NCBI GenBank assembly: GCA_003970805.2
Contig: CP051152.1
Span: forward strand, 124,001-188,000
DNA from: Undibacterium piscinae
GTDB taxonomy: Bacteria > Pseudomonadota > Gammaproteobacteria > Burkholderiales > Burkholderiaceae_D
DNA: 64,000 nt
Reading direction: 5' to 3'
Shown here: positions 47,246 through 63,299 of the stretch, piece by piece
How positions within the stretch are numbered: position 1 is the first letter of the stretch
How the letters are laid out: the number at the start of each line of letters is the position of its first letter
The notes under the pieces: model-generated
The model's database searches: none
The model's input: the letters and a program-made list of their open reading frames with translations, nothing else
Told to the model about the DNA's origin: nothing
Made by a program: the position numbers and the translations under genes

Positions 47246-50200
47246 TTAGCAAAAATCCCTGCTGACACTGTCTAGTTGTCCCAGTAAATGCGAGAGATCT
47301 ACCAGACGTTTTGCCACCAGATGGCAGACTTCTCCTTCCCGTTGCCAGATTCCGTACACACCTAACAGTCTGGCATTGAGCACTTCCTTACGTTGCTGTT
47401 CGACCAGTGACGGCCAGATAATCACATTGACCGGTCCGGTCTCGTCTTCTATCGTGATGAACAGCACGCCTTTGGCTGTGCCGGGGCGCTGGCGCACGGT
47501 GACCATGCCGCAACCGCGTGCGAACTGGCGATGTTGAAAGCTGTTGAGCAACTCTGCCGGCAGGAAACGCATGGCCAGCAAACGCTGACGCAATAAGGCC
47601 AGCGGATGGCGCCCCAGGGTCAGTCCGGCGCTATGGTAGTCGCTGACTATTTCTTGCGCTTCGCTCGGGGCCGTCAGCGCTGGCGTTAGCTCTTCGAGCG
47701 TGGTCGTATGCAGTAAATCCTTGTCGGGAATTGCCGCTATCGCCTGCCATAAGGCCAGACGGCGATGTCCGCTTAGTGTCGCCAGGGCATTGCCGGCGGC
47801 CAGGGCTTCGATATCGCGCCGGTTCAGTTGGGCGCGTCGTGCCAGATCACTGATGTCGGAGTAGGCTTGCTGCGCACGCGCTTGTTGTATCCGCACAGTT
47901 GCCTCGGCCGACATCCCGCGCAGTAGAGAAAACCCGAGTCGCACCGCGATTTTTCCTGGGCGTGCCGAATTGTCGGTTTCCAGGCTAGATTCCCAGTTGC
48001 TTTGGCTAATTGTCACGGGCCGGACTTCGACGCCATGACGGCGCGCGTCTTGTACCAGTTGCGATGCTGAATAAAAACCCAAAGGCTGGGAATTGAGCAG
48101 GGCGCATAAAAACACCGCCGGCTCATGGCATTTGATCCAACTGCTGGCGTAAGTAAGAATGGCAAAGCTGGCGGCGTGGCTTTCGGGAAAGCCGTAATCG
48201 CCAAAGCCCAGCATCTGATTGAAAATGCTATTTGCAAATGATGCCGTATAACCATTTTTTATCATGCTGCTGGTGATGCGCTCCTTGTAATGCGCCAGGC
48301 CGCCCTTGCGTTTCCAGGCAGCCATGGCGCGCCGTAACTCATCGGCTTCGCCCGGCGTAAAATCGGCCGCAACCATGGCGATACGCATCACTTGCTCCTG
48401 AAAAATCGGCACACCGAGGGTACGCGCGAGTATTTTCTCTATCTCAGGTTTCGGGTAGCTGATGGCTTCTTTGCCCTGTCTGCGGCGTAAATACGGATGC
48501 ACCATGCCGCCTTGTATAGGGCCGGGCCTGACGATTGCCACTTGCACCACCAGGTCATAAAAAGTCCTGGGGCGCAGGCGCGGCAGCATGCTCATTTGCG
48601 CCCGTGACTCGATCTGAAATACGCCTATGGTATCGGCCTGGCAAATCATGTTGTAGGTGGCAGTGTCTTCACGCGGGATGTCCTGCATGCGCGATGGTCG
48701 GCCCGGCAGTGTCGCCATCAGATCAAAGGCACGTTTGAGTGCCGATAGCATGCCCAGTGCCAGCACATCAACCTTGAGTAAGCCCAGTGATTCGAGATCG
48801 TCTTTGTCCCATTCGATCACGCTACGCTCCTTCATTGCCGCATTTTCTATCGGCACCAGGCGTGACAGCTTACCCTTGGCGATCACGAAGCCGCCGCTGT
48901 GTTGCGATAGGTGGCGCGGGAAGCCGAGCAACTGGGTCGCCAGGCTGGCCCATTGCTGCGCCAGGGCAGAATCGGGATCGAGGCCGCTTTCACTGAAGCG
49001 CTGTAATAGCTCGCTCTTGCTGTCAAACCAGTGATGTGCCTTGGCGACCGCATCGACCAGTGCCAGATCCACTCCCAGCGCCTTGCCGGCTTCGCGTAAG
49101 GCGCCTTTGGGTCGGTAGGTGTGTACTGCCGCTGCCAGTGCGGTGCGGTTTCTGCCGTACTTTTTGTACAGGTATTGGATCACTTCCTCGCGCCGCTGGT
49201 GCTCGAAATCAACATCGATATCGGGCGGTTCGCCGCGCTCTTTTGACAGAAAACGTTCGAACAGCAGAGTGTCACTTTCCGGACTGACTTCGGTGATGTG
49301 CAGGCAATAGCAAACCACTGAGTTGGCCGCCGAACCACGGCCCTGGCACAGTATGCCTTGTGAGCGGGCGAATCTGACGATATCGTGCACGGTTAAGAAG
49401 TAGGGCTCGTAAGCGAGGTCGTTGATCAGGTGCAGTTCATAGTCTATTTTCTGCGTGATTTCCGCGCTGATACCCCGGGGGTAGCGCAGCCTTGCGCCCC
49501 GATAGACTTCCTGCTTTAAATAACTGGCCGGTGTTTGGCCGGCGGGCACCAGCTCATCCGGATATTCGTAGCGCAATTCATCCAGCGAGAAGTTGCACAG
49601 ACCGGCTATCTTGATGGTTTCCGCCAACGCCGCCGCAGGATACAGATTGGCCAGTCGCAAGCGTGAACGCAAGTGTTGTTCGGCATTCGGTGCCAGAGCG
49701 TAGCCGCAGTCGGCAATGCTTTTCCCCAGACGGATGGCGCTTAGCGTATCTTGCAAGGGCTTGCGCGAGCGCACATGCATGCAGACCTGACCGATGGCAA
49801 CTAGCGGGAGGCGCTGGTGATGGGCGATCGCATTGACTCTGCCCTGGTGCAGTTCATCCATGGCACGCGTGAGCAAATTGAGACCTATCCAGGCGCGTCC
49901 CGGAAAGCAGGTTTTAATCCATGCCGCTTGGCGGGCTAAAATTTCTATGCTGGCCGGATAATCTGGCACCAGAATGATCAGGCAATCGGGTAAGCCGCGC
50001 AGATGCTGGTATTCGTTTGGTGGTTCCGTAAAATCTTGTGGCGTCAGCAGATAGCTTCCTTTGCTGACCCTGGTGCGTGCCAGCGTGATGAGTTCGCACA
50101 GATTGCCATAGCCTTCACGATTTTGCGCCAGTGCAATCAGCGTGCTAGCGGGTACGGCGGTATCGAGGTCGCCGGCTTGGCTCAACCTGAAATGACTTCC

Positions 50201-50452
50201 TATCAGCAGAGGGAGCGCATGTTTTTTCGCTTCCTGATGCGCGCGCACTACGCCGGCCAGCGAGCACTCGTCAGTCACCGCCAATGCGCTATAAGCTAGC
50301 TGGACGGCGCGTGCAACCAGTTCTTCGGCATGCGATGCGCCCTGCAGAAACGTGAAATTGGACAGGCAAAATAACTCGGCGTAGTCGGGCAGGTAAGTGC
50401 TGGGCTGTATAGCACTCTGAGTTAGCCAAGGCTTAGCGGAGTTCATCGGCAT
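47246..50452 (-). CDS. dnaE2: Error-prone DNA polymerase DnaE2 (ImuC)
   Basis: A 1068-residue C-family polymerase. The PHP domain starts ELFCLSNFTFLQGASHAEEL; CQGRGSAANSVVCYCL and the catalytic triad in EPPDIDVDFEHQRREEV follow; ESRAQMSMLPRLRPRTFYDL and an OB-fold near residue 990 (TIEDETGPVNVIIWP) close it. Family knowledge: DnaE2 does mutagenic translesion synthesis with ImuA and ImuB under SOS control. It is the last gene of the cassette, 216 nt behind imuB, and that gap holds a long inverted-repeat element. The start lies in a 10-bp tandem repeat; ATG at 50452 or 50446 both fit. Confidence 0.94.
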   Translation of the reverse strand: MPMNSAKPWLTQSAIQPSTYLPDYAELFCLSNFTFLQGASHAEELVARAVQLAYSALAVTDECSLAGVVRAHQEAKKHALPLLIGSHFRLSQAGDLDTAVPASTLIALAQNREGYGNLCELITLARTRVSKGSYLLTPQDFTEPPNEYQHLRGLPDCLIILVPDYPASIEILARQAAWIKTCFPGRAWIGLNLLTRAMDELHQGRVNAIAHHQRLPLVAIGQVCMHVRSRKPLQDTLSAIRLGKSIADCGYALAPNAEQHLRSRLRLANLYPAAALAETIKIAGLCNFSLDELRYEYPDELVPAGQTPASYLKQEVYRGARLRYPRGISAEITQKIDYELHLINDLAYEPYFLTVHDIVRFARSQGILCQGRGSAANSVVCYCLHITEVSPESDTLLFERFLSKERGEPPDIDVDFEHQRREEVIQYLYKKYGRNRTALAAAVHTYRPKGALREAGKALGVDLALVDAVAKAHHWFDSKSELLQRFSESGLDPDSALAQQWASLATQLLGFPRHLSQHSGGFVIAKGKLSRLVPIENAAMKERSVIEWDKDDLESLGLLKVDVLALGMLSALKRAFDLMATLPGRPSRMQDIPREDTATYNMICQADTIGVFQIESRAQMSMLPRLRPRTFYDLVVQVAIVRPGPIQGGMVHPYLRRRQGKEAISYPKPEIEKILARTLGVPIFQEQVMRIAMVAADFTPGEADELRRAMAAWKRKGGLAHYKERITSSMIKNGYTASFANSIFNQMLGFGDYGFPESHAASFAILTYASSWIKCHEPAVFLCALLNSQPLGFYSASQLVQDARRHGVEVRPVTISQSNWESSLETDNSARPGKIAVRLGFSLLRGMSAEATVRIQQARAQQAYSDISDLARRAQLNRRDIEALAAGNALATLSGHRRLALWQAIAAIPDKDLLHTTTLEELTPALTAPSEAQEIVSDYHSAGLTLGRHPLALLRQRLLAMRFLPAELLNSFQHRQFARGCGMVTVRQRPGTAKGVLFITIEDETGPVNVIIWPSLVEQQRKEVLNARLLGVYGIWQREGEVCHLVAKRLVDLSHLLGQLDSVSRDFC

Positions 50453-50470
50453 TCATCGGTGTTCATCGCT
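50441..50470. repeat. 10-bp tandem repeat over the dnaE2 start
   Basis: GTTCATCGGC, ATTCATCGGT and GTTCATCGCT stand head to tail. Read on the minus strand each copy contains ATGAA, so the dnaE2 start codon lies inside the array. Confidence 0.8.
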
Positions 50471-50554
50471 TGCATGAGCGCTCAGTGGCACTCATTGACA
50501 TCCCCGCAGGCTTGATGCCGGTTTTGCCGGGGTGGCGTTTAAAAGCTACCAAGC

Positions 50555-50637
50555 GGCAGGCCCAGGACGCAATCGCGCTGCGGCTTTGCCGGCTATCGTG
50601 CCGGTAAGGCGCATGGGGATTGCGTCCTGGGCTTGCC
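50555..50637. repeat. 83-nt palindromic dispersed element, copy 1
   Basis: The outer arms 50555-50574 (GGCAGGCCCAGGACGCAATC) and 50618-50637 are inverted repeats matching at 19 of 20 positions. Between them TTGCCGG...CCGGTAA folds into a second hairpin. An ungapped alignment with 63305-63387 by hand gives 53 of 83 identical positions, so this is a repeated element and not a simple terminator. There is no T tract. It sits between imuB and dnaE2. Confidence 0.8.
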
Positions 50638-50668
50638 ATTATTTGGGTATTGATCGTCATGTGCGCCA

Positions 50669-52297
50669 TTATCCGAACCAGCCATGCAGATACCAGGCAG
50701 CGTCAGCCTCGTTGCGTGCTAATTGTTGGGATGCGCTGACGCGTTCACGGTAGATCCAGCAGCGCAGGTGTTCACTGTTTTCGGCGACAAAGTAATCGCG
50801 GGTCACCAATTGACCGTTCCACCAGCCCGCTTCTATCCGCTCTGCCGGTGAAAGTAGCGTCAGGGTGCTACCGTAACAGGGGCGATGCTGACGTACTTCC
50901 AGCGGAATCGCCGATGCGAGTAACCAGGCCGGGCGGTTCATTATTCCCGGTGGGGGGCGGAATGCGCAGGCTGCCGCTGTTGTTGCCGCTGCCGCTGCAG
51001 CTGTTGTTGCTGATATTGCGTGTTGGCGTGCTGGCATGGCCGAGACCCAGTGGTTTGCCAGTTCCGGCCTATAGTCAGCGCGCGGTGCCGCTTGCAAGAC
51101 GTTTTCAGCCCCTAGGCGGGCGACCAATAATTCCAATAACCTATGCTGGTCCTGCTTGCTGTTGCCAGGTTCAGGGAACAGGCTGGCGCTGGCGGCTTGC
51201 CTCGCGGCGACCTGCGTCGCATGCAGGCTTAAGGCGATGGCCGGGGCTACCAGTGACAGTTGCGCCAGGCGCTCTTTTAATAGTCGCGCCAGATGTTCGG
51301 CCTGATTGCTTGCCTCAGCCAATGTGATGATGATTTCTGTGGGCAGCACTGCAAGGCGCCCCCGTTCGTGCTCAAGCAGCAGTTGTATCTGGCTCACTGC
51401 TAACTGCTTGGCTGATAGCCAGCCGCAAAGTTGTTGTAGCAAAGCATGGGCAAAATTAAATATCGCCTCGGCGTGTTCTATGCGCTCCGGTAACTCGCTG
51501 CGTGCGAAAAATTGCGCTGGTACTGTTAGCCATTGGTGTAATTGAGTCGCCTCGCCATAGGCGTAATCTAGCGTTGACAGTAAGGCTTTGCCGCAGCGTC
51601 GTTGCAGTCCCGCACGCGGTAACTGGCGTAAGCTTTTTAAATCGTGGCAGGCAATGCCATTGAGCCATTCATGCCATGGCGCTGCGGCAGGCAACAGCTT
51701 AAGCGCCAGCGGGTCAAGCTGGCGTGCCAGCTTAGCGGGATTGAGGCAGTATTTGCCGTGCCGGCCGCTTGCTGCAGCGGCCTGCGCCAGCAACCATGCA
51801 GCAGTTGCGTTAGTTGCATAGCCTAAGCTGGCAGTGACGCCTAAGGCCGCCATGCTGGCCGCCACGCGCCGGCGCAATTGGCGCACTCCGCCAAACAGGC
51901 GCAAGCTGGCACCGATATTCATCAGCAGGCTGGCGCGCTCGGCACCGGCCACTTGCGGCGAGTACTGCAGCAAGGCGATTGCCACCTTGTGCAAGAGATC
52001 ATTTTCCAGGGCGACATCATGCTGTTGTAGCGTGGCGCCGGGCAGCAGCATATGTACGCTGCCACTGCGCATACCCACTTGCACTCCGGCAGCCCGGGCC
52101 AGTGCCGAGATCGCCACTACACGATTTTTATCTAGTACGACGGCCCCATCATCAGCCAGCCAGTTCGGCCGAAATGCTTCTGTAGCTAGTTGAGGCAGAT
52201 GTACGGCCAGCCACAGGCTTGCCGGTGGACGTTTTTCCGGCGGGTGATGAGTCGTGGGCCTCGCTGTCTTCGCTGAGGGGGCGGGCGGCATAGTCAT
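50669..52297 (-). CDS. imuB: ImuB, catalytically dead Y-family polymerase-like protein
   Basis: A 542-residue protein with a Y-family polymerase fold. The N-terminal LWLAVHLPQLATEAF replaces the metal-binding DMDAFFA of active enzymes, and LLMNIGASLRLFGG replaces the SxDE motif, so both catalytic sites are missing, as is usual in ImuB. Family knowledge: ImuB is the hub that contacts the beta clamp, ImuA and DnaE2. The start at 52297 lies 146 nt inside imuA; I see no later start in frame before the conserved LWLAV, so the long overlap seems real. It has an alanine-rich stretch near residue 455. Confidence 0.9.
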   Translation of the reverse strand: MTMPPAPSAKTARPTTHHPPEKRPPASLWLAVHLPQLATEAFRPNWLADDGAVVLDKNRVVAISALARAAGVQVGMRSGSVHMLLPGATLQQHDVALENDLLHKVAIALLQYSPQVAGAERASLLMNIGASLRLFGGVRQLRRRVAASMAALGVTASLGYATNATAAWLLAQAAAASGRHGKYCLNPAKLARQLDPLALKLLPAAAPWHEWLNGIACHDLKSLRQLPRAGLQRRCGKALLSTLDYAYGEATQLHQWLTVPAQFFARSELPERIEHAEAIFNFAHALLQQLCGWLSAKQLAVSQIQLLLEHERGRLAVLPTEIIITLAEASNQAEHLARLLKERLAQLSLVAPAIALSLHATQVAARQAASASLFPEPGNSKQDQHRLLELLVARLGAENVLQAAPRADYRPELANHWVSAMPARQHAISATTAAAAAATTAAACAFRPPPGIMNRPAWLLASAIPLEVRQHRPCYGSTLTLLSPAERIEAGWWNGQLVTRDYFVAENSEHLRCWIYRERVSASQQLARNEADAAWYLHGWFG

Positions 52298-52955
52298 AGG
52301 TAGTGATCTCTGGGTTGGCGCTGTACATTGATGACAGCCGGGCTAGCGGAATCGTCAAAGGCGTATGCCCTGGCGCACCACGCCGCTTGATGATTTCTAC
52401 CTGCAAACCCACGGCTGAACTCTTCAGCTTGAGGCGTAAGGGGGCGGGGGAGGGGTTAAACGCCTGTTGCAACGGGCGTATTACGGCAAATAGCGTGTTA
52501 CCGCTCTGTGCCGCCAGATGCAGGCGACGCAGGTTTTCCGTTTTTATTTGATTTGGCCAAAACAACAGGGCGGCGCAACTGCCGCTGCGCAGAATTTGTT
52601 CGGCGGCCCATAGCGCATCGGCATGTTTGCTGCAGCGTAGCCACAACAGGCGCGAAAGATCCATGCCTAGTTCTGCCAGCGCCAACGCTTGCGGTTGATA
52701 GGGGGCTTGCAGAAAAATAATCTGGCCGCCCGTCAAATTGGCTAATGCCGGTTGTAGCAGGCGCAACTCTGCCGTGCCCTGATGCTGAATCAGGATTTCG
52801 GTGAGCGCTCCACCGGGCCAACCGGCCCCCGGCAATTCTGCCGCCAGTGCCGGATAGCCACAAGCCAGATAGTCGCCGACACCGCGTGCCAATTGTGAGG
52901 CACGCCATAACGATGGATGAATACTCTCTGGTGTCGGGGATGAGTTGGATTTCAT
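52152..52955 (-). CDS. imuA: ImuA, SOS translesion synthesis-associated RecA-like protein
   Basis: A 267-residue protein: SLWRASQLARG, LPGAGWPGGALTEILIQHQG, and ALALAELGMDLSRLLWLRC match the ImuA (SulA/RecA-like) family of Burkholderiales. The C-terminal 50 residues, Ser/Thr-rich, overlap imuB. Family knowledge: ImuA inhibits or modulates RecA and is needed for ImuB-DnaE2 mutagenesis. The ATG at 52955 lies 21 nt after a LexA box that overlaps the promoter, so it is the first gene of an SOS operon. Confidence 0.9.
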   Translation of the reverse strand: MKSNSSPTPESIHPSLWRASQLARGVGDYLACGYPALAAELPGAGWPGGALTEILIQHQGTAELRLLQPALANLTGGQIIFLQAPYQPQALALAELGMDLSRLLWLRCSKHADALWAAEQILRSGSCAALLFWPNQIKTENLRRLHLAAQSGNTLFAVIRPLQQAFNPSPAPLRLKLKSSAVGLQVEIIKRRGAPGHTPLTIPLARLSSMYSANPEITTYDYAARPLSEDSEAHDSSPAGKTSTGKPVAGRTSASTSYRSISAELAG

Positions 52956-53769: not shown

Positions 53770-54390
53770 TTAGTTCGGGTTCACTGAATCTGAGATGGCA
53801 AGCGCCCCCGCATATCCCTCAGGCAAATCGAGTTCGCTGAATGTGCATCCGCTTAGCTCGCGTTCGAGTTGTACCGACCATTCGCTCAATGGCAAGCCAC
53901 GGCACTTAAATGTAGCTTCCAGACGTGCCCAATGGGCGGCGAAATAAGGCGCTTGCTGTGCCAGTGGCGCGCTGGCAATAGAGGCGGTGATTTGCTCGCC
54001 CAGGTACAATCCGGCCACGTCTCGCCAGTCCGGCAGATGTGCTATCCGCAGCAAGTCTATTCCTATCGTGGTGGCTGGCCTGCCATCGCAAATCGCGGCG
54101 ATGGATAGACCTGGTTCATGGCTGATCGACAGCGCGATGTGATGACCTGGTATCGCCAGATGTTGTCCCGGCCGCTTGCCGGGCTCATGATCTAACTGTA
54201 TTTGTCCGGCCGGAATATCAAAGTTGTTGCTCAGTAGGTCTGATAATGCCGATCGTATCCGTTGCCTGGTAAATTCGCGGCTGGCAGCTGGCGGGGTTGC
54301 CACACTCACGAGTACTAAGCCATGTTCGGCTAAAGCCTTGAGTGCGGCTACCAGCTTATCTGGCCAAGGGTAAACGGGGAGTCGTGACAT
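53770..54390 (-). CDS. 4'-phosphopantetheinyl transferase superfamily protein
   Basis: A 206-residue Sfp-type enzyme. IALSISHEPG, TTIGIDLLRI (the metal-binding Asp region, here GIDLL) and WARLEATFKCRG (the W-x-x-x-E-A-x-x-K block) are the three family motifs. It transfers phosphopantetheine from CoA to a carrier-domain Ser. It lies 18 nt behind the Pls-like synthetase, whose carrier domain is its obvious substrate; the pair seems to be a self-contained operon. Confidence 0.85.
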   Translation of the reverse strand: MSRLPVYPWPDKLVAALKALAEHGLVLVSVATPPAASREFTRQRIRSALSDLLSNNFDIPAGQIQLDHEPGKRPGQHLAIPGHHIALSISHEPGLSIAAICDGRPATTIGIDLLRIAHLPDWRDVAGLYLGEQITASIASAPLAQQAPYFAAHWARLEATFKCRGLPLSEWSVQLERELSGCTFSELDLPEGYAGALAISDSVNPN

Positions 54391-54408
54391 TGCCTTGCCT
54401 GAATTTGA

Positions 54409-57400
54409 TTAGATGGCGGCAGCCAGCGGCCTAGCTGCCGGGATTGATGGAGTGGCAGTGGCTATGGCGGCCGGGCAACCGCGCCAGCTCGATTTTGCCG
54501 GTATGAATTCGCCTTTCATCACTAGCGTGAGTGCACCGAGTTTGGCATCGTCACCGACTACCGCACTGTATAGCACTGAACTGCGTGGTCCCATATACAC
54601 GCGTTCGCCAATGTTGACGTGGTCGATTTTCATGACGCGGTCTTCGAATAAATGGGTTTGCGGACAAGCCAGCGCATTGATCTCGCTGTAAGCCCCGATG
54701 CTAACGCAATCGAATTCCGTGATGTCAGTGGTATCCATATACACGCCTTTGCCGATTTTGCTGCCGAGTAGATTGAAAGCCAGTGGCAACCACGGCGTAC
54801 CGCGCAGATAGCGCATGAAATTGGGCACGGCAATGCCTTCGTACAGATTGGTAATGGCTTCCGATAGCCAGACAAAGCGGGTCCACATAGGGGAACTACT
54901 TTTTTGGTAGCGTCCCACCAATAGCCACTTCAACGTCAGGACGAAAGCGAAGCAGCCGACACCATAGCCCAGACCCGCCAATACCAGGTAGTACATCACT
55001 TCTGCCCAGCGGTCTTCACCGGCCAGCGGCATCAGATCAAGCACTATGGTATAGCCGACCGAGATCACCATCGCATGCGGTGCGATGATACGGAAAGTCT
55101 CTACCAGGGTGCGGCCTATCCGGCGCCACACCGAAGGCTTGAAAGTCAGTTCTTCAGGGAAGCCCTTGACTTCTTCGCGCGCTGGCAAATGTATCGCCGG
55201 TGAGCCTAGCCAGGTATCGCCTTCACGCATGGTCTGATTGGCGGGGGCGGTACTGTGCACGCCTATCAGTACGTTTTCGGGCAAGATGGTGCCGTCAGGG
55301 ATATACGCGCCGTTACCGACAAAGCTGCGGCGCGAAATGACCGTGGGTTTCATGCTCATCCAGCCGCCGTCTATCTGTTCATCGCCTAGCAGTACCGCAT
55401 CAGCGATGAAGGTTTCATCACCCAGAGTCAGCATATCCGGCACCACGCCGAGCGCAGTCGAGATCTCGGCGCCTTTACCGACCTTGGCGCCGAGCAGGCG
55501 ATACCAAAAAGGTGCATATACGGTAGCGTAGACGCCATGCAAGACATTCAGGCTAGATTCCTGGATTTGGTTCACCAGCCATTTGGCGCAATAGGTATTG
55601 CCATGGATGGAGTAGCTGCCAGGCCTAAGCTTAGGCAACACGCTCCAGCGTATTCCGGCAGACAATAGCGCGGTGCAGATGATGAGTACCGCGGTGGCAG
55701 GGAAGGCCAGTAAAAAATATTTCGCCAGTTGAAACGGAACCGAATTGCCCTGCAACCATGGAAAAGTCTCGACGTTATCGATTAAATCTATGGTGACAAA
55801 GCTAGGAAATACCGGCAGGAAAAACAGCGCAGCAATCAGGGCGCTGCCAAAAATAAAGAACAGCGCTTCGCCGGCCAGGCGCAACTTACTCACTGCCGGA
55901 CGCGCTGCAATCGACGCCGGATCAAATGCGCCTATGTCATGCGCGGGGGAGCCGCGCCAGATACGTTTGGCCGGGATAGCCTGGCCTTCGCTCAGGGCTG
56001 ATTGTCCTTCCAGATGGCCGAAGGCGGCAATCGAGACGCCGCCTTCGAGTACAGCATAAGAACCAACGCAGGCATCGTTACCTATGCTGATCTTACCCAA
56101 ACGCAGCTCGCCACGTTCGATTCTGGCATTTTCAAAGTTACTGGCATTACCTATGCTGACCTGGTCGCCGATCTCCAGCAGATCGGGAGCGCGCAAGGTC
56201 ATGGAGCCGATATTTACATCACGTCCGATTTTCGCACCCAAGGCGCGCAACCACCATACATACAGCGATGAGCCACTCAGCATATACACCGGTGCTGCCT
56301 CTACCAAGCGGTCAGCCAACCACCAGCGATAATAGGTCAGGCCCCAGAGCGGATAGCGCCCGGCTTTCAGACGTCCGACGATCAGCCATTTGCCGGCGAT
56401 GGCGACCACAAATTCCATGAGTGTCAGCAGTAGAAATACGCCTACCGATAAGGCAATTGCGCGCGTAATCGAGTCGTCCGGTTCGCCGGTAAGGAAGTGA
56501 TAGGCGAAAAACGGCGTCAGCCATTGCATCATGCGCATCGCTACCAGCCAGGGAATGGCGATCGCTTGCGCTGCGCCACAGATCCAGCGTTTCAGGCTCG
56601 ATGGCGGGTTCCAGGCTTCCGCGTTTTCCGTGGTGCTGCTCTGGGATTGCGCCAGCACCATAGCAATCTGGCCGACATGTCTGTGCTGATAAATATCACT
56701 GATCTTGAAGTAGGCAAAACGCGGGTCGGCACGCAAGGCTGATACCAGGCGTGCGGCGAGTAAAGAGTGGCCGCCAAGATCGGCAAAGAAATCGAGTTCC
56801 CTGCGTACCGGCTGTCCGGGAAATAAGCCATGCAAGGCGGTGAACAAGACTTCCTCGGCCGGATTGGCCGCGCTATCGGATTCGGCGGAGCTACTCAGTA
56901 CCGTCAATTTGCGAGCCTTGAGATCCTTGCGGTCTATCTTGCCCGAGGTCAGGCGCGGCATTTCCAGCAGGCTTTCAAAACGGCCTGGCACCATGTAGGG
57001 CGGCAACACCGCCGCCAGCGCAGCCCGGAGTGCCGCACTAGATAGCGTGAGATCGGCTTCAGGTACGATGAAAGCGATCAACTGATCGATGCCGTCTTCC
57101 TGGCGCAAGATCACCGCTACTGTGCCTACGCCCGATTGTTTTGCCAGTACTGCCTCGATTTCACCAAGCTCTACGCGGAAACCACGAATTTTTACCTGAT
57201 CGTCGGACCGGCCCAGGCATTGCACGCTGCCATCTGCGGCAATGCGCGCCAGGTCACCGGTGCGATACAGGCGCTGATCGTAGGCGCCGCTGGCCCAGGG
57301 GTTGGCCAAAAATTTTTCTGCCGTCAGGTCGGGGCGCCCCAGATAACCTTCGGCGACACCGGGGCCGGTGATGCACAACTCACCGGTTTCACCGCGCGGC

Positions 57401-58485
57401 AGTAAGCGTAAGCCGTTTTCCACGGCGACATCTATCACCAGTAAGCCGTAATTGGGTAAGGGTTTACCTATCGTGACCGGTTCGTTTAAATGTAATTCGG
57501 CCAGACTGGCCGAGACGGTTGCCTCGGTCGGGCCATAGGTATTGAATAATCGCCGGCCTGGTTTGACCCAGCGTGCCACCAGGCTTTCCGGGCACATCTC
57601 GCCGCCCAGGTTAATGATGCGCAGAGAAGGTACATCACGGCTAAACAAGGCCAGCAGGGTGGGGACCGCATGCAAGACGGTAACCTGATTCTGGTCTAGC
57701 TCATGCGGTAGCGCATCGGGATCCAGCGCCACTTCGCGCGGCGCGATCCACAGGCAGGCACCGGCCAGATAACTGATCCAGATTTCTTCAAACGACATGT
57801 CAAACGCGACCGAGAAGCCCTGATACACGCGGTCTGTGCTGCATACGCCAAGGACGCTGTTTTCGCTACGTAAAAAGTGGCAGATACTGCCTTGGGTAAT
57901 CGCAATGCCCTTGGGTTTTCCGGTTGAGCCGGACGTGTAAATCACATAGGCAGGGTGGCTGGGCAATGCGCCCTGGCGCCGTAGTAAGGGAGCCTCTGCC
58001 GGCAACAGTAAATTCTCAGAAGTCCAGATGCTGCAGGCTAGTGCGCTTAGTGGTGCGGCAAATGCCTGGCAACTGACGATGCCAAAGGCTTGCGCGTCTT
58101 CCAGGCATACCGCGATACGCTCCACCGGAGTATCGGCATCAAATGGCAACCAGGCTGCGCCGGTCTTGGCGATCGCCGCCTGCATGACGAGTAAATCTAT
58201 GCCGCGCGGCAGCCATAAGCCAATAATTTGTCCGGGGCGCACGCCAGCCTTGATCAGTTGTGAGGCGGCGTTATCAGCCCAGGCATTGAGCTGCCCATAG
58301 CTAACTACCGTGTCGCCTAAAATCAGCGCCGGTTGATCCGGTAACCTGGAAGCACTGGCTTCAAGCAAATCGGCCAGCACTTCATGGAGTATGAGTTCCG
58401 GTTGTTGTGCTCCATAAAGAATGTCCGGAGATGCTTGTGCTGTTGTGGTTTGTTCGGGAGTTACGGGAGCGCTGGTGTGAGGCAT
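54409..58485 (-). CDS. Pls/PosA-family non-ribosomal peptide synthetase (A-T-membrane-embedded acyltransferase-like domains)
   Basis: A 1358-residue protein. Residues 35-525 are an adenylation domain: YTSGSTGKPKG, NTYGPTEATV, YRTGDLA, SGKIDRK. Residues 540-615 are a carrier domain with Ser-574 in DLGGHSLLAARL. The rest has about six helices in three pairs (640-702, 872-945, 1135-1190), each pair followed by a left-handed beta-helix domain (735-850, 980-1095, 1215-1340) ending WRGSPA, WLGSPA, WRGCPA. This is the layout of epsilon-poly-lysine synthetase. Read by hand against GrsA, the A-domain pocket is D-M-E-H-N-G-T-V-S-K (Asp-229, Met-230, Glu-233, His-272, Asn-292, Gly-294, Thr-316, Val-324, Ser-325, Lys-516); Asp-229 would hold the substrate amine. 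No condensation or thioesterase domain of the usual type is seen. The product is unknown. Confidence 0.9.
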   Translation of the reverse strand: MPHTSAPVTPEQTTTAQASPDILYGAQQPELILHEVLADLLEASASRLPDQPALILGDTVVSYGQLNAWADNAASQLIKAGVRPGQIIGLWLPRGIDLLVMQAAIAKTGAAWLPFDADTPVERIAVCLEDAQAFGIVSCQAFAAPLSALACSIWTSENLLLPAEAPLLRRQGALPSHPAYVIYTSGSTGKPKGIAITQGSICHFLRSENSVLGVCSTDRVYQGFSVAFDMSFEEIWISYLAGACLWIAPREVALDPDALPHELDQNQVTVLHAVPTLLALFSRDVPSLRIINLGGEMCPESLVARWVKPGRRLFNTYGPTEATVSASLAELHLNEPVTIGKPLPNYGLLVIDVAVENGLRLLPRGETGELCITGPGVAEGYLGRPDLTAEKFLANPWASGAYDQRLYRTGDLARIAADGSVQCLGRSDDQVKIRGFRVELGEIEAVLAKQSGVGTVAVILRQEDGIDQLIAFIVPEADLTLSSAALRAALAAVLPPYMVPGRFESLLEMPRLTSGKIDRKDLKARKLTVLSSSAESDSAANPAEEVLFTALHGLFPGQPVRRELDFFADLGGHSLLAARLVSALRADPRFAYFKISDIYQHRHVGQIAMVLAQSQSSTTENAEAWNPPSSLKRWICGAAQAIAIPWLVAMRMMQWLTPFFAYHFLTGEPDDSITRAIALSVGVFLLLTLMEFVVAIAGKWLIVGRLKAGRYPLWGLTYYRWWLADRLVEAAPVYMLSGSSLYVWWLRALGAKIGRDVNIGSMTLRAPDLLEIGDQVSIGNASNFENARIERGELRLGKISIGNDACVGSYAVLEGGVSIAAFGHLEGQSALSEGQAIPAKRIWRGSPAHDIGAFDPASIAARPAVSKLRLAGEALFFIFGSALIAALFFLPVFPSFVTIDLIDNVETFPWLQGNSVPFQLAKYFLLAFPATAVLIICTALLSAGIRWSVLPKLRPGSYSIHGNTYCAKWLVNQIQESSLNVLHGVYATVYAPFWYRLLGAKVGKGAEISTALGVVPDMLTLGDETFIADAVLLGDEQIDGGWMSMKPTVISRRSFVGNGAYIPDGTILPENVLIGVHSTAPANQTMREGDTWLGSPAIHLPAREEVKGFPEELTFKPSVWRRIGRTLVETFRIIAPHAMVISVGYTIVLDLMPLAGEDRWAEVMYYLVLAGLGYGVGCFAFVLTLKWLLVGRYQKSSSPMWTRFVWLSEAITNLYEGIAVPNFMRYLRGTPWLPLAFNLLGSKIGKGVYMDTTDITEFDCVSIGAYSEINALACPQTHLFEDRVMKIDHVNIGERVYMGPRSSVLYSAVVGDDAKLGALTLVMKGEFIPAKSSWRGCPAAIATATPSIPAARPLAAAI

Positions 58486-58585: not shown

Positions 58586-58642
58586 GGTGCACTATCAGGT
58601 GCACTAATTAATTGCACTATTAGGGCAATGTCACTTGCACTT
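58586..58642. promoter_or_regulatory. Repeated GGTGCACTA motifs upstream of the Pls-like gene
   Basis: GGTGCACTATCA (58586-58597), GGTGCACTAATTA (58598-58610) and ATTGCACTATTA (58611-58622), followed by looser TTGCACTT copies to 58642. About 100-155 nt before the start at 58485. It could be a row of operator sites or another short intergenic tandem repeat. Confidence 0.55.
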
Positions 58643-58786: not shown

Positions 58787-58813
58787 AAAAAAGCCTCCGT
58801 CAATGCGGAGGCT
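58787..58813 (-). terminator. Intrinsic terminator of the FKBP gene
   Basis: AGCCTCCG at 58792-58799 pairs with CGGAGGCT at 58806-58813. On the minus strand the stem is followed by six T residues. It is about 100 nt after the FKBP stop. Confidence 0.88.
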
Positions 58814-58909: not shown

Positions 58910-59266
58910 TTACACGCCTAACAATTCAACTTCAAAAATCAAAGTGGCGTTCGCAGGGATCACGCCACCGGCGCCACGCGCGCCGTAGCCCAGTGCTGCC
59001 GGGATAGTCAGGACGCGGGTGCCGCCGATTTTCATCCCTTGTACGCCTTCATCCCAGCCCTTGATGACTTGGCCGGCGCCCAATGCGAAAGAGAACGGTG
59101 TGCCGCGGTCTTTGCTGGAATCAAATTTTTTGCCGGCGCTGCCATCGGCGTTTTGCAGCCAGCCTGTGTAATGTACATCGACATTATTGCCAGCCTGAGC
59201 TTGAGCGCCTGTGCCTTCGACTTTATCTTCGTATTGCAAGCCAGATACGGTAGTGATAGTTGCCAT
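58910..59266 (-). CDS. FKBP-type peptidyl-prolyl cis-trans isomerase
   Basis: A 118-residue single-domain FKBP: VDVHYTGWLQNADG, KFDSSKDRGTPFSFALGAGQVIKGWDEGVQGMKIGG and IPAALGYGARGAGGVIPANATLIFEVELL. No signal peptide, so it is cytoplasmic. It catalyses proline isomerisation. It is monocistronic with its own terminator. Confidence 0.95.
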   Translation of the reverse strand: MATITTVSGLQYEDKVEGTGAQAQAGNNVDVHYTGWLQNADGSAGKKFDSSKDRGTPFSFALGAGQVIKGWDEGVQGMKIGGTRVLTIPAALGYGARGAGGVIPANATLIFEVELLGV

Positions 59267-59662
59267 GTTTCTTCCTTATTCGATTAAAAAACTGGCGCAA
59301 TTGTAGACCAAATTGGCGATTTTCCGCCATTCGCGTGTGTAGATTGCTCGTGCATCACCGTATTGTTGGCATTTTCAGGTCAGGCTAAACGCTACTTAGT
59401 GGCTACTTTATTACCGTAGCTACTGATTTGACGCAAAACATTGTTAAAAGGAGAGGGGCTTTTTTTGTATCAGCTCTCGTACTCTGTCTAGGCGCGGTAA
59501 AATACCTACTGTTATGCTTTTTGCTTTGCCTTTGTGTATTGCTTTGTGTATTGCTTTGTGTATTGCTTTGTGTATTGGTAATGCATTGATCATTGATAGC
59601 CGGTATTTTTTACCAGTATTTTATTTTTCTCGTATCCAACATTTTTTAAGCGGTCATCTTTC
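59267..59662. other. Intergenic region with a 12-bp tandem repeat
   Basis: About 395 nt between divergent FKBP and beta-propeller genes. It contains the GCTTTGTGTATT array at 59529-59576. I see no gene. Confidence 0.6.
59529..59576. repeat. 12-bp tandem repeat, four copies
   Basis: CCTTTGTGTATT followed by three exact copies of GCTTTGTGTATT at 59541-59552, 59553-59564 and 59565-59576. It lies 87 nt before the beta-propeller gene. Confidence 0.95.
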
Positions 59663-60637
59663 ATGCAGCTTCGTTTTTGTGGTGTATCTTTAGTCTTGTT
59701 CTCCTTGTTTTCTGTCATTTTTCCGCAGGCTCAGGCTGGTGTGGTGGTGATCCTTAATTCGCGCGACGCTACCGTCAGTTTGCTGGATCAGGAAAGCTAT
59801 AAAGAGCTCGACAAATTCCCTATCGGTAAAGAGCCGCATCATCTGATGGCAACGCCGGATAATAAGTCGCTGATCGTCGCCAATGCCGTCGGTGATGAAC
59901 TGGTGTTTCTTGATCCCAAAACCGGCCAGATCCAAAAGCGCATCAAGGATGTTGCGGATCCTTATCAGATCGGTTTTTCGCCTAACCAGAAATGGTTTAT
60001 CTCGAATTCACTACGCTTGGATCGCGTCGATTTTTACAAATACGACGGCAAAGACTTTACTTTGGCTAATCGCGTTCCCCTGGCAAAACTACCTAGCCAT
60101 ATGGCGTTTGATGCCGCCAGCAGCACCGTTTTCATTACCCAGCAGGGTAGCGACCAAGTGTCGGCGATTGATCTGGCGACCCAGAAAGTCAAGTGGACTA
60201 TTCCCGTCGGCAAACTGCCGGCCGGTATCGTCATGACACCGGATGATAAGCATTTGCTGGTCGGTATCATGGGTAAGGATTACGTCGAAGTCATCGATTG
60301 GCGCACCCAAAAAACCGTCAAGCGCATTACCGCTGGCGCTGGTACGCACAATTTCCGTTCCATGGGTGATAAGCGCCATGTGTTCGTCTCTAACCGCACT
60401 TCCAATACGATCAATATCATCGATCAAGTGACGCTGGAAAACGTCGGCACTATTCCGGTGCCGGGCGGCCCTGATTGTATGGAACTCAGTGCGGATGGCA
60501 AGACCTTGTGGGCGACGCTGCGCTGGATTAAAAAAGTGGCGGTGATTGATGTCGCCAGCAAAAAGGTCATCAAGCTTATTCCGGTAGGCCGCTCGCCGCA
60601 TGGCGTGTATTTCCATGACCGTGCCGCGACCATGTAA
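59663..60637 (+). CDS. Exported YVTN-type beta-propeller protein
   Basis: A 324-residue protein with a signal peptide (LVLFSLFSVIFPQAQA) and repeated blades such as ATVSLLDQESYKELDKFPIG, DQVSAIDLATQKVKWTIPVG and VAVIDVASKKVIKLIPVGRSPHG, each close to the YVTN pattern of about 40 residues. Such proteins form seven-bladed propellers in the periplasm; ligands vary and the role here is unknown. It is the first of four co-directional genes with short gaps. Confidence 0.88.
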   Translation: MQLRFCGVSLVLFSLFSVIFPQAQAGVVVILNSRDATVSLLDQESYKELDKFPIGKEPHHLMATPDNKSLIVANAVGDELVFLDPKTGQIQKRIKDVADPYQIGFSPNQKWFISNSLRLDRVDFYKYDGKDFTLANRVPLAKLPSHMAFDAASSTVFITQQGSDQVSAIDLATQKVKWTIPVGKLPAGIVMTPDDKHLLVGIMGKDYVEVIDWRTQKTVKRITAGAGTHNFRSMGDKRHVFVSNRTSNTINIIDQVTLENVGTIPVPGGPDCMELSADGKTLWATLRWIKKVAVIDVASKKVIKLIPVGRSPHGVYFHDRAATM

Positions 60638-60649
60638 CTCCCGCTAACG

Positions 60650-61447
60650 ATGAAGCCCGGAAAATCTGCCGTATTCGCAACGCTGTTCAGTCTGGCGGCG
60701 CTGCCTGCGGTTTCAACTGCGGCCGCACCTGCGCCGGCAAACTGCAAGGCCACCGTGTATCTGAGTTTTGATACCGGTAGCCAGTCGCAGGCCGGGCTCA
60801 TTGCCGACACGTTGCGCCGGCACCGCATCAAGGCGACGTTTTTTCTGGCCAATGAAAAAACCGTCAATGGCGATTACTCTCTCGACCAGACCTGGGCGCC
60901 GTACTGGAAGCAATTGGTGCAAGACGGCCATGCCTTCGGCACCCATACCTTTGATCACGTTTACCTGTCGCGCGATTTGCCCGATGGCCGGATTGAAGTC
61001 AAGCCGCAATTCGGTGCGCAAGCCGGTAAAAAACTGGTATGGACGGCGCAGCAGTATTGCGATGAATTACGCCGCGTCGATCAGCGCTTTACGCAATTGA
61101 CCGGCAGCAAACTAGACCCTTACTGGCGTGCGCCCGGCGGCAAACTGAGCCCGAATCTGCAAAAGGCCGCTCTGGCCTGTGGCTATGCCCATGCGGGTTG
61201 GGCACCAGCCGGTTTTTCCGGTGATGAATTGCCCAGTGAAAGTTGGAGTAATCCGGCCTTGCTCAAGCGCGCGCTTGATGGCTTGAAAGACGGTGATATC
61301 TTTATGGCGCACCTTGGCATCTGGTCACGCAAGACGCCGTGGGCACCGGAAAACCTGGAGCCTTTGCTCACCGGCCTGGAGCAAAAAGGTTTTTGCTTTG
61401 CCAGCTTGCGTGAACATCCCCTTTATTCTGTTAAAAAGCATCCATGA
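60650..61447 (+). CDS. Polysaccharide deacetylase-like exported protein
   Basis: A 265-residue NodB-fold protein with a signal peptide (VFATLFSLAALPAVSTAAA). Motif 1 reads YLSFDTGSQSQ instead of TFDDG, so the usual second Asp (a metal ligand) is Thr. Motif 2 HTFDH, motif 3 RAPGG and motif 4 MAHLGI are present. Family knowledge: these enzymes remove N- or O-acetyl groups from glycans. Whether this variant is active cannot be told. It starts 12 nt after the propeller gene and overlaps the next gene by ATGA. Confidence 0.85.
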   Translation: MKPGKSAVFATLFSLAALPAVSTAAAPAPANCKATVYLSFDTGSQSQAGLIADTLRRHRIKATFFLANEKTVNGDYSLDQTWAPYWKQLVQDGHAFGTHTFDHVYLSRDLPDGRIEVKPQFGAQAGKKLVWTAQQYCDELRRVDQRFTQLTGSKLDPYWRAPGGKLSPNLQKAALACGYAHAGWAPAGFSGDELPSESWSNPALLKRALDGLKDGDIFMAHLGIWSRKTPWAPENLEPLLTGLEQKGFCFASLREHPLYSVKKHP

Positions 61448-62448
61448 ATTTTTTAGATTTATTCGCTAACGCGCAAGCCTGGATTTTTGAAGCTATCGTG
61501 CAACCGCTGGTGTTCCAGATTGGCCTGGGCGAGTTTGTTGAAGACGCCTTTCACGGTGTCGAATGGTTTCTGATGGGCGTGTGCGAATTGCTCTTGCTGT
61601 TCATCGTGCTCAGACCGCTGGAAGCCTTGATGCCAGTACATAAAATCAGCGATCCCTATGCGCGCTGGAATGATTTCATCTACACCGCGCTGCACCGTTT
61701 GGGGATATTTTCGGTACTGATTTTTTTGCTGCTAGACCCCATGCTGGACAGCCTGACTGCGCTGGCGCATCTGCAGGGGGTTAATCCGTTTAATCTGGAA
61801 AACCTGTGGCCGGGCATGCTAGAGCATCCGGTGCTGGTGTTTCTGGTGTATCTGCTGGTGCTCGATTTCTTTGATTACTGGTATCACCGTGCCGAACATC
61901 AGTTCAACTGGTGGTGGGCGCTGCACAGCGTGCATCACAGCCAGCGCAACATGAACCTGTGGAGCGACAACCGCAACCACTTATTCGACGATGTGCTGCG
62001 CGATATTTACATGGGCCTGATCGCCATTGTCATCGGCGTGCAGCCGGGTCAATACGTGATGCTGGTGGTGGTCTCGCGCATGCTGCAAAGCCTGCAGCAC
62101 GCCAATGTGCGTATCCATTTCGGTCGCTGGGGCGAGCGTTTGCTGGTTTCGCCGCGTTACCACCGCACCCATCATGCGATAGGCATAGGCCACGAAACGC
62201 ATGGCAAGGGCAGTATAGGCGGGCATAATTTTGCCGTGCTGTTTCCGCTCTGGGATATCTTGTTTGGCACCGCCTTGTTCATCAAGGAATTTTCCCTGAC
62301 CGGTATCCGCGATCAGTTGCCTGCTCCAGAGGGGAGTTCGCGCGACTACGGACACGGTTTCTGGTCGCAACAATGGCTGGGCATACAACGTCTGCTGGGG
62401 CGTGACCGGCAAAGTGCGCGGAATGCGCAACATATCTCAAGCACATAA
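61444..62448 (+). CDS. Sterol desaturase/fatty acid hydroxylase superfamily membrane protein
   Basis: A 334-residue integral membrane protein. The di-iron histidine motifs are HRAEH, HSVHH and HRTHH, with a further GHETHG. About four to five helices, one pair at 45-65 and another near 90-145. Family knowledge: such enzymes hydroxylate or desaturate lipids with O2; bacterial members act on various lipids. It starts in the stop of the deacetylase-like gene, so the two are coupled. The substrate is unknown. Confidence 0.9.
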   Translation: MNFLDLFANAQAWIFEAIVQPLVFQIGLGEFVEDAFHGVEWFLMGVCELLLLFIVLRPLEALMPVHKISDPYARWNDFIYTALHRLGIFSVLIFLLLDPMLDSLTALAHLQGVNPFNLENLWPGMLEHPVLVFLVYLLVLDFFDYWYHRAEHQFNWWWALHSVHHSQRNMNLWSDNRNHLFDDVLRDIYMGLIAIVIGVQPGQYVMLVVVSRMLQSLQHANVRIHFGRWGERLLVSPRYHRTHHAIGIGHETHGKGSIGGHNFAVLFPLWDILFGTALFIKEFSLTGIRDQLPAPEGSSRDYGHGFWSQQWLGIQRLLGRDRQSARNAQHISST

Positions 62449-62465
62449 ACACAGGAGCGGCACGG

Positions 62466-63299
62466 ATGAATTTGCAAGCGATGATAGGTTCCTGGGGTAG
62501 GGCAGTGGTGGCGCAATTCCATTTCCGGATTTTGCTGCTCAGCCTGCTACCGTTCTTTTTATCGCTGATCTTGTGGGGGCTTGCCATGTGGTGGGGTCTG
62601 CAGGATCTGATCGATTTCATCCATGGATTTTTTGCCGCGCATGACGGCTTTAAAACCGCCGGTGACTTATTGGCGAGTACCGGCATGCTGGCATTTAAGA
62701 CCGTGATCGTGCCTTTGATTGCGATGTGGCTGCTGCTGCCTCTGATGGTCCTGAGTTCTTTGCTCATTACTGGCTTGATGGCGATGCCTGTGATCAGCCG
62801 CCATGTCAGTAGCCGCGCTTATCCGCAACTGGAGCAGCGCAAGGGTGGTTCTTTACTCGGTAGCCTCTGGCATTCCTTGTCCTCGTTCGTGATTTTCCTG
62901 TTGTTGTGGCTGCTCAGTTTGCCGCTGGTATTGATACCACCCGTGCATTTTGTGGTGCAACCCTTACTCTGGGGGTGGCTCACTTACCGCGTGATGGCGT
63001 ATGATGCGCTGGCGGATCACGCCGATGCCGAAGAACGCAAAATCCTCACTCGCTCGCATCGCTTGCCTTTTCTGATCATGGGCACAATCTGCGGCGTGAT
63101 AGGTGCCGCGCCTATGGTGTTGTGGATAGGTGGCGTGATGTCAGTGGTGTTCTTCCCGTTTTTTGCCGGCTTGGCGATCTGGCTGTACGTGCTGGTATTT
63201 ATTTTTAGCGGCCTGTGGTTTCAGTACTATTGCATGGCCGCCTTGCAGCAGCTTAGAAGCGCCGTGGCAGCGACCGCAATAACCGCAGCGCCCGTCTGA
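62466..63299 (+). CDS. EI24 domain-containing membrane protein
   Basis: A 277-residue protein with about six hydrophobic helices. The segment LWGWLTYRVMAYDALADHAD near residue 170 is the EI24/CysZ family signature in Betaproteobacteria. The family includes CysZ, a sulfate channel, but many members have no assigned role. It follows the sterol desaturase-like gene by 17 nt. A terminator-like structure lies some 115 nt after the stop. Confidence 0.85.
   Translation: MNLQAMIGSWGRAVVAQFHFRILLLSLLPFFLSLILWGLAMWWGLQDLIDFIHGFFAAHDGFKTAGDLLASTGMLAFKTVIVPLIAMWLLLPLMVLSSLLITGLMAMPVISRHVSSRAYPQLEQRKGGSLLGSLWHSLSSFVIFLLLWLLSLPLVLIPPVHFVVQPLLWGWLTYRVMAYDALADHADAEERKILTRSHRLPFLIMGTICGVIGAAPMVLWIGGVMSVVFFPFFAGLAIWLYVLVFIFSGLWFQYYCMAALQQLRSAVAATAITAAPV

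Follow-up and report, generated by a model that had tools for sequence, protein, structure and literature searches.

What does a Pls/PosA-type synthetase gene make in a bacterium where a phosphopantetheinyl transferase (PPTase) gene lies directly behind it, and which enzymes does that PPTase serve? The question is raised by two minus-strand ORFs within a 64,000-nt stretch of Undibacterium piscinae contig CP051152.1 (genome 4.19 Mb on one contig), referred to here as the window. The best-matching precedent is PosA of A. baumannii, a characterised delta-poly-L-ornithine synthetase with a published pocket code (PMC10522769). We consider it highly probable that the two-gene unit of Undibacterium makes delta-poly-L-ornithine by a PosA-type mechanism, with the PPTase priming the carrier domain.

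Table 1. Features of the posA-PPTase locus and of a second carrier-dependent system in the same genome (window coordinates unless stated; aa, residues of the synthetase in the domain and repeat rows)
Feature	Position	Strand	Basis or remarks
posA-type Pls/PosA family non-ribosomal peptide synthetase, 1358 aa	54409..58485	-	profile, pocket and homology
4'-phosphopantetheinyl transferase (PPTase), Sfp/AASDHPPT-like, 206 aa	53770..54390	-	D112, E158 and K162 conserved
Adenylation (A) domain, about aa 20-524	56914..58428	-	K516 near its end
Carrier (T) domain, about aa 545-610, limits estimated	56656..56853	-	sub-threshold Pfam match and Ser conservation
Terminal membrane/polymerisation domain (TIGR02353), aa 639-1339	54469..56571	-	NCBIfam profile
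Repeat 1, aa 630-862, helix pair and beta-helix	55900..56598	-	contains invariant R720
Repeat 2, aa 865-1105	55171..55893	-	contains invariant D1029 and N1058
Repeat 3, aa 1125-1335	54481..55113	-	contains H1278 in Q-[TS]-H (codon 54652-54654)
Hairpin with T tail	58792..58813	-	between FKBP gene (58910-59266) and posA
Siderophore-like cluster	L116 740-10124 (own genome, C1, about 2.70 Mb)		single C-A-T-TE NRPS module

The gene pair and its surroundings

The end of posA and the downstream PPTase ORF are separated by 18 nt; this spacing and the coordinates of both ORFs had been given exactly in the initial annotation. Its assignment to the Pls/PosA family was correct, the synthetase matching TIGR02353 ('Pls/PosA family non-ribosomal peptide synthetase') at 841 bits (cut-off 423.1) over positions 2-695 of 695. 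Of the adenylation and carrier domains that it had listed, the A domain scored 391.9 bits on TIGR01733 (cut-off 317.4), found its best solved-structure match in the PosA A domain 8G95 (531.9 bits), and aligned to 8G95 without a gap along the 16-residue stretch that distinguishes PosA from the lysine enzyme. The carrier domain scored 16.9 bits on Pfam PP-binding, under the 20.8 cut-off, and was recognised by its motif, DLGGHSLL, whose phosphopantetheine serine Ser574 (codon 56764-56766) was kept in 195/195 aligned rows. These rows comprised the query, 120 proteins (among them the protein of the window itself) and ORFs from 74 loci; the other six of the 80 loci were left out because they yielded no clean posA ORF. 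A Pfam scan of the synthetase returned no thioesterase and no classical condensation domain.

A hydropathy scan of the terminal domain marked stretches at about residues 635-653, 671-706, 868-905, 917-951, 1131-1156 and 1163-1191, which form three pairs. A profile built from 53 terminal domains matched hexapeptide-repeat acyltransferases and gamma-carbonic anhydrases in each region after a helix pair, and the repeats aligned with one another at hhalign probabilities of 99.9% (1-2), 99.8% (1-3) and 99.2% (2-3). At the sequence level, then, six transmembrane helices in three pairs separate three homologous beta-helix repeats, as the initial annotation had proposed. The terminal architecture is already described in PMC10522769, whose models led to the proposal that it is one domain of roughly three-fold symmetry. 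The observed layout of genes and domains can hardly be due to chance; the domain order, pocket identity, carrier serine, PPTase family and gene pairing were all read from the sequence itself.

The downstream ORF had been called an Sfp-like PPTase, and rightly so: it scored 28.9 bits on PF01648 (cut-off 25) and holds the Asp, Glu and Lys of the family motifs. Among 61 aligned PPTase rows these catalytic residues were kept at D112 in 60, E158 in 60 and K162 in 59, the exceptions being one sequence truncated at a contig end and one with Asn for K162. A profile of 11 relatives matched human AASDHPPT at E 0.003, its match to Sfp (E 0.087) being not significant. The GID...W..xEA..K signature is shared with Sfp and AASDHPPT, whereas Leu114 stands where the human enzyme has Met and Sfp has a Glu that we take to be a metal ligand. 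Judged by its sequence, the ORF is thus a diverged Sfp/AASDHPPT-type phosphopantetheinyl transferase with a confident AlphaFold2 model (from 11 sequences; mean pLDDT 87.2, pTM 0.85). It diverges fast, with a mean identity of 37% versus 74% for the posA terminal domain over 58 pairs. Published work applied Sfp and CoA to full-length PosA (PMC10522769), a step that illustrates the function such a PPTase would have.

The hairpin with a T tail between the FKBP gene and posA suggests that posA and the PPTase gene form a transcription unit of their own; terminator-like sites in the region numbered 11, against 7.8 +/- 2.6 in shuffled sequence. The pair had no PADLOC match. Upstream of posA, at 58588-58619 (minus strand), lie three direct TAGTGCA repeats about 12-13 bp apart, a pair pattern observed twice against 0.01 expected. 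A conserved operator was rejected, the repeats being found in the window's own copy only, among 145 loci. Farther upstream, a 12-bp unit (CTTTGTGTATTG) occurs four times in perfect tandem at 59530-59577, just before a tight plus-strand run (59663-63299) encoding a YncE-like beta-propeller (from 59663), a polysaccharide deacetylase, a fatty-acid hydroxylase with a weak match to OlsE, and a CysZ/EI24-like membrane protein. Downstream of the pair, at 47246-52955 (minus strand), are imuA, an imuB-like Y-family polymerase gene and an error-prone DnaE gene, presumably SOS mutasome genes; imuA/imuB/dnaE2-type genes also come next after the pair in about a dozen related loci.

Recurrence of the pair and the probable clients of the PPTase

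Pairing was surveyed in 80 named loci, the best 80 of 472 by similarity to the window and hence a biased set; one ends inside posA, leaving 79 assessable. A PPTase flanks posA in 60/79, directly downstream in 59 (one of these, L093, has its PPTase cut by a contig end and scores 46 bits only) and directly upstream in one (L106), and is absent in 19/79. By record title the paired loci belong to beta-proteobacteria and two Pseudomonas, the genera including Undibacterium, Janthinobacterium, Duganella, Polaromonas, Rhodoferax, Azonexus, Methylotenera, Pseudomonas and others; Collimonas carries posA without an adjoining PPTase in 5/5. The local-PPTase profile had no match around A. baumannii posA, where about 4 kb on its downstream side and 2 kb on its upstream side were covered, nor within 3-4 kb downstream in seven other loci of the plasmid collection (alpha-proteobacteria and actinobacteria). 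Pairing is therefore not essential, given the 19 unpaired loci, the A. baumannii locus and the single-gene operon reported there. In two posA-less genomes (L154, L155) PPTases scored only 47-51 bits on the same profile and had neighbours that differ by ORF size.

A larger conserved biosynthetic cluster was rejected, as only posA and the PPTase are broadly shared among the 80 named loci: clustering of the surrounding families gave 75 posA and 46 PPTase members, the window included, and 12 in the next largest family. Candidate posA-PPTase fusions were likewise dismissed. In L088, and similarly in L097, what precedes the PPTase in the long ORF does not belong to posA, and the PPTase sits in another frame whose open stretch crosses posA; in L042 the PPTase lies in the frame of posA, but as a separate ORF. 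No published report of the pairing was found in a mostly open-access literature, a weak negative, so the steady pairing, like the single-histidine terminal domain described below, may be a detail beyond what was found in print.

A PF01648 search of the U. piscinae genome returned AcpS and the window PPTase only. The same genome holds a siderophore-like cluster (Table 1) with an NRPS module, an ornithine/lysine monooxygenase, a GNAT acetyltransferase, a TonB receptor and a MATE protein; its product would be a siderophore of the hydroxamate type. Because this is a second carrier-dependent system in a genome with a sole non-AcpS PPTase, the window PPTase probably serves both posA and the siderophore NRPS. 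The initial annotation had given the synthetase "its own" PPTase, which is supported in part: the adjacency stands, and a second client is probable.

The same facts lend themselves to a stronger claim, namely that the PPTase is the general NRPS primer of the genome, that its adjacency to posA is incidental and that its main client is the siderophore NRPS. The unpaired loci also favour this alternative, which we nevertheless consider rather unlikely. Adjacency recurs across many genera while the neighbours other than the PPTase change from genus to genus; a possible PPTase start codon overlaps the posA stop in 17/59 downstream cases; and posA and PPTase protein distances correlate (Mantel r 0.81, 0/2000 permutations, 58 pairs with L093 and L106 left out, species relatedness uncorrected). 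A PPTase working for both clients is compatible with the preferred reading, priming of a PosA-type synthetase by its neighbour.

Presence and absence within the genus were compared in 36 genomes, the window's own included, of which 31 carry posA. Twenty-nine entered the comparison: the five that lack posA were set aside, as were one genome cut off at a contig end and one whose gene is split. The local PPTase adjoins posA in 20/29 and is absent in 9/29, and a further non-AcpS PPTase was present in 6/20 genomes with the local PPTase versus 9/9 without it. Second AcpS-like copies were counted as AcpS in this tally, and the only PPTase of one genome (G009), which had no AcpS match, was counted as non-AcpS by default. 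Fisher p values of 0.0007 (29 genomes) and 0.0024 (26 genomes at least 90% complete) are optimistic because the compared genomes are related. The simplest reading is that genomes with another PPTase to stand in can dispense with the local one.

Substrate pocket, terminal domain and predicted polymer

The specificity pocket of the A domain reads DMEHNGTVSK (D229, M230, E233, H272, N292, G294, T316, V324, S325 and K516). Alignment reproduced to the letter the code that the initial annotation had read by hand, and the comparison with characterised enzymes that it had called for found all ten residues identical to the published A. baumannii PosA code, which narrows its broad expectation of a cationic or polar amino acid to L-ornithine. 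The code is kept in 114/121 protein rows, the query included (three have S for T and four lack part of the pocket), and in 73/74 locus rows (one S for T). In PosA two pocket residues, Asp217 and Glu221, are indispensable, the delta-amine is touched by Thr304 and Ser313, and Met218 restricts side-chain length (PMC10522769); the counterparts of all five are preserved in the window protein. PosA favours L-ornithine over lysine more than 160-fold and yields free delta-poly-L-ornithine of 7-12 residues in vitro (PMC10522769). By analogy, delta-poly-L-ornithine is the predicted product of the Undibacterium enzyme.

Use of another diamino acid (lysine or diaminobutyrate), or of a mixture, by the same type of synthetase is improbable. 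PosA itself adenylates lysine weakly, and the pocket codes of ornithine-activating domains are degenerate according to the discussion in PMC10522769; yet PosA gave no lysine polymer, and the fully identical code of the window protein has Met (M230) at position 2, not the Ala of Lys-activating members such as epsilon-poly-L-lysine synthetase or the Phe of the DAP/DAB type (PMC10522769).

Ten histidines occur in the terminal domain and only H1278, in the third repeat, is conserved (105/107 rows, the other two being gapped there). In a small set with actinobacterial members among its nine rows, H1278 is likewise kept in 9/9, as are R720, D1029 and N1058, and the stretches of repeats 1 and 2 aligned to H1278 contain no histidine. 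LpxA and other beta-helix acyltransferases use a histidine at a subunit interface. A sole conserved histidine confined to one repeat suggests that the terminal domain has a single asymmetric active site around H1278, not three condensation domains. Tentatively, and with rather less confidence than we place in the product, we propose a joint reading: the terminal domain of Pls/PosA enzymes may be one intramolecular pseudo-trimer of beta-helix repeats with its single active site on repeat 3 (Q1276-[TS]-H1278, assisted by R720, D1029 and N1058), so that C1-C3 would not be three condensation domains, and in beta-proteobacteria the synthetase and its fast-evolving PPTase may make up a minimal polymer module of two genes.

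In the preferred mechanism the PPTase would load phosphopantetheine onto Ser574, and the A domain would adenylate L-ornithine, D229 holding the alpha-amine and E233, T316 and S325 the delta-amine. The aminoacyl-thioester would be handed to the membrane-bound terminal domain, where the three pseudo-symmetric helix-pair/beta-helix repeats may act as one catalytic unit around H1278, linking residue after residue by a bond between delta-amine and carboxylate, with no thioesterase; the polymer might leave through the membrane helices. Substrate, residue roles, linkage and product length in this scheme are carried over from A. baumannii PosA and would be as they are there. On that precedent it is plausible that the two genes suffice. 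That the locus releases no free polymer, and serves instead to produce a short isopeptide or to modify an acceptor on the cell surface, is the least probable alternative, a slim chance at best, since PosA gave free 7-12-mers in vitro (PMC10522769) and, the PPTase aside, no gene family (families clustered, unannotated) is broadly common around posA, even though the beta-helix repeats resemble acyltransferases acting on fixed acceptors and the accessible text of PMC10522769 describes no product isolated from cells. A biological role of the polymer could be drawn by analogy with PosA: a synthetic 12-mer had antifungal activity, and a posA mutant formed slightly more biofilm (PMC10522769).

Distribution and comparison with known systems

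The family, pocket code and product type have been known since 2023 (PMC10522769). The present locus adds Undibacterium and its beta-proteobacterial relatives to the range of a characterised cationic-polymer synthetase, suggests a compact module of two genes for delta-poly-ornithine, and offers in H1278 a concrete single-residue test of how the polymerisation domain works. Pls/PosA genes above the family cut-off were found in 26/398 sampled genomes of the phylum and 17/399 of the order, and are thus patchy and not rare in these samples. Janthinobacterium is a related genus, in the same family as Undibacterium. An antiSMASH 'NAPAA' cluster was reported in every strain of a five-strain Janthinobacterium study (PMC12618000).

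Among other Pls/PosA loci, three (L149, L148 and L147) have annotated partners other than a PPTase: a diaminobutyrate transaminase (ectB) and an S41 peptidase in Skermanella, an M1 peptidase in Streptomyces, and an N-acetyltransferase-domain protein in Rhodococcus. The A. baumannii locus (L146, NZ_CP104448.1) comes from a 4.09-Mb record that is filed as a plasmid in PLSDB and looks like a mislabelled chromosome.

With Pls (Streptomyces albulus and Corynebacterium; PMC8117764; PDB 7WEW) the window synthetase shares the A-T-TM/C1-C3 layout and the lack of a thioesterase; it differs at pocket position 2, which is Met here and Ala in Pls, and whereas an epsilon-poly-L-lysine-degrading peptidase is described beside pls, no peptidase gene was seen among the scanned window neighbours. 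The likeness to PosA (A. baumannii; PMC10522769; PDB 8G95-8G98) is closer, extending to domain order, full-length homology (55.7% identity over 1,328 residues to the L146 protein, whose code is the same), the ten-residue pocket, the extra A-domain segment and the QTHLFED motif. The two loci differ in gene content: posA of A. baumannii is reported as a single-gene operon (PMC10522769), and posA of Undibacterium is followed 18 nt downstream by a PPTase gene.
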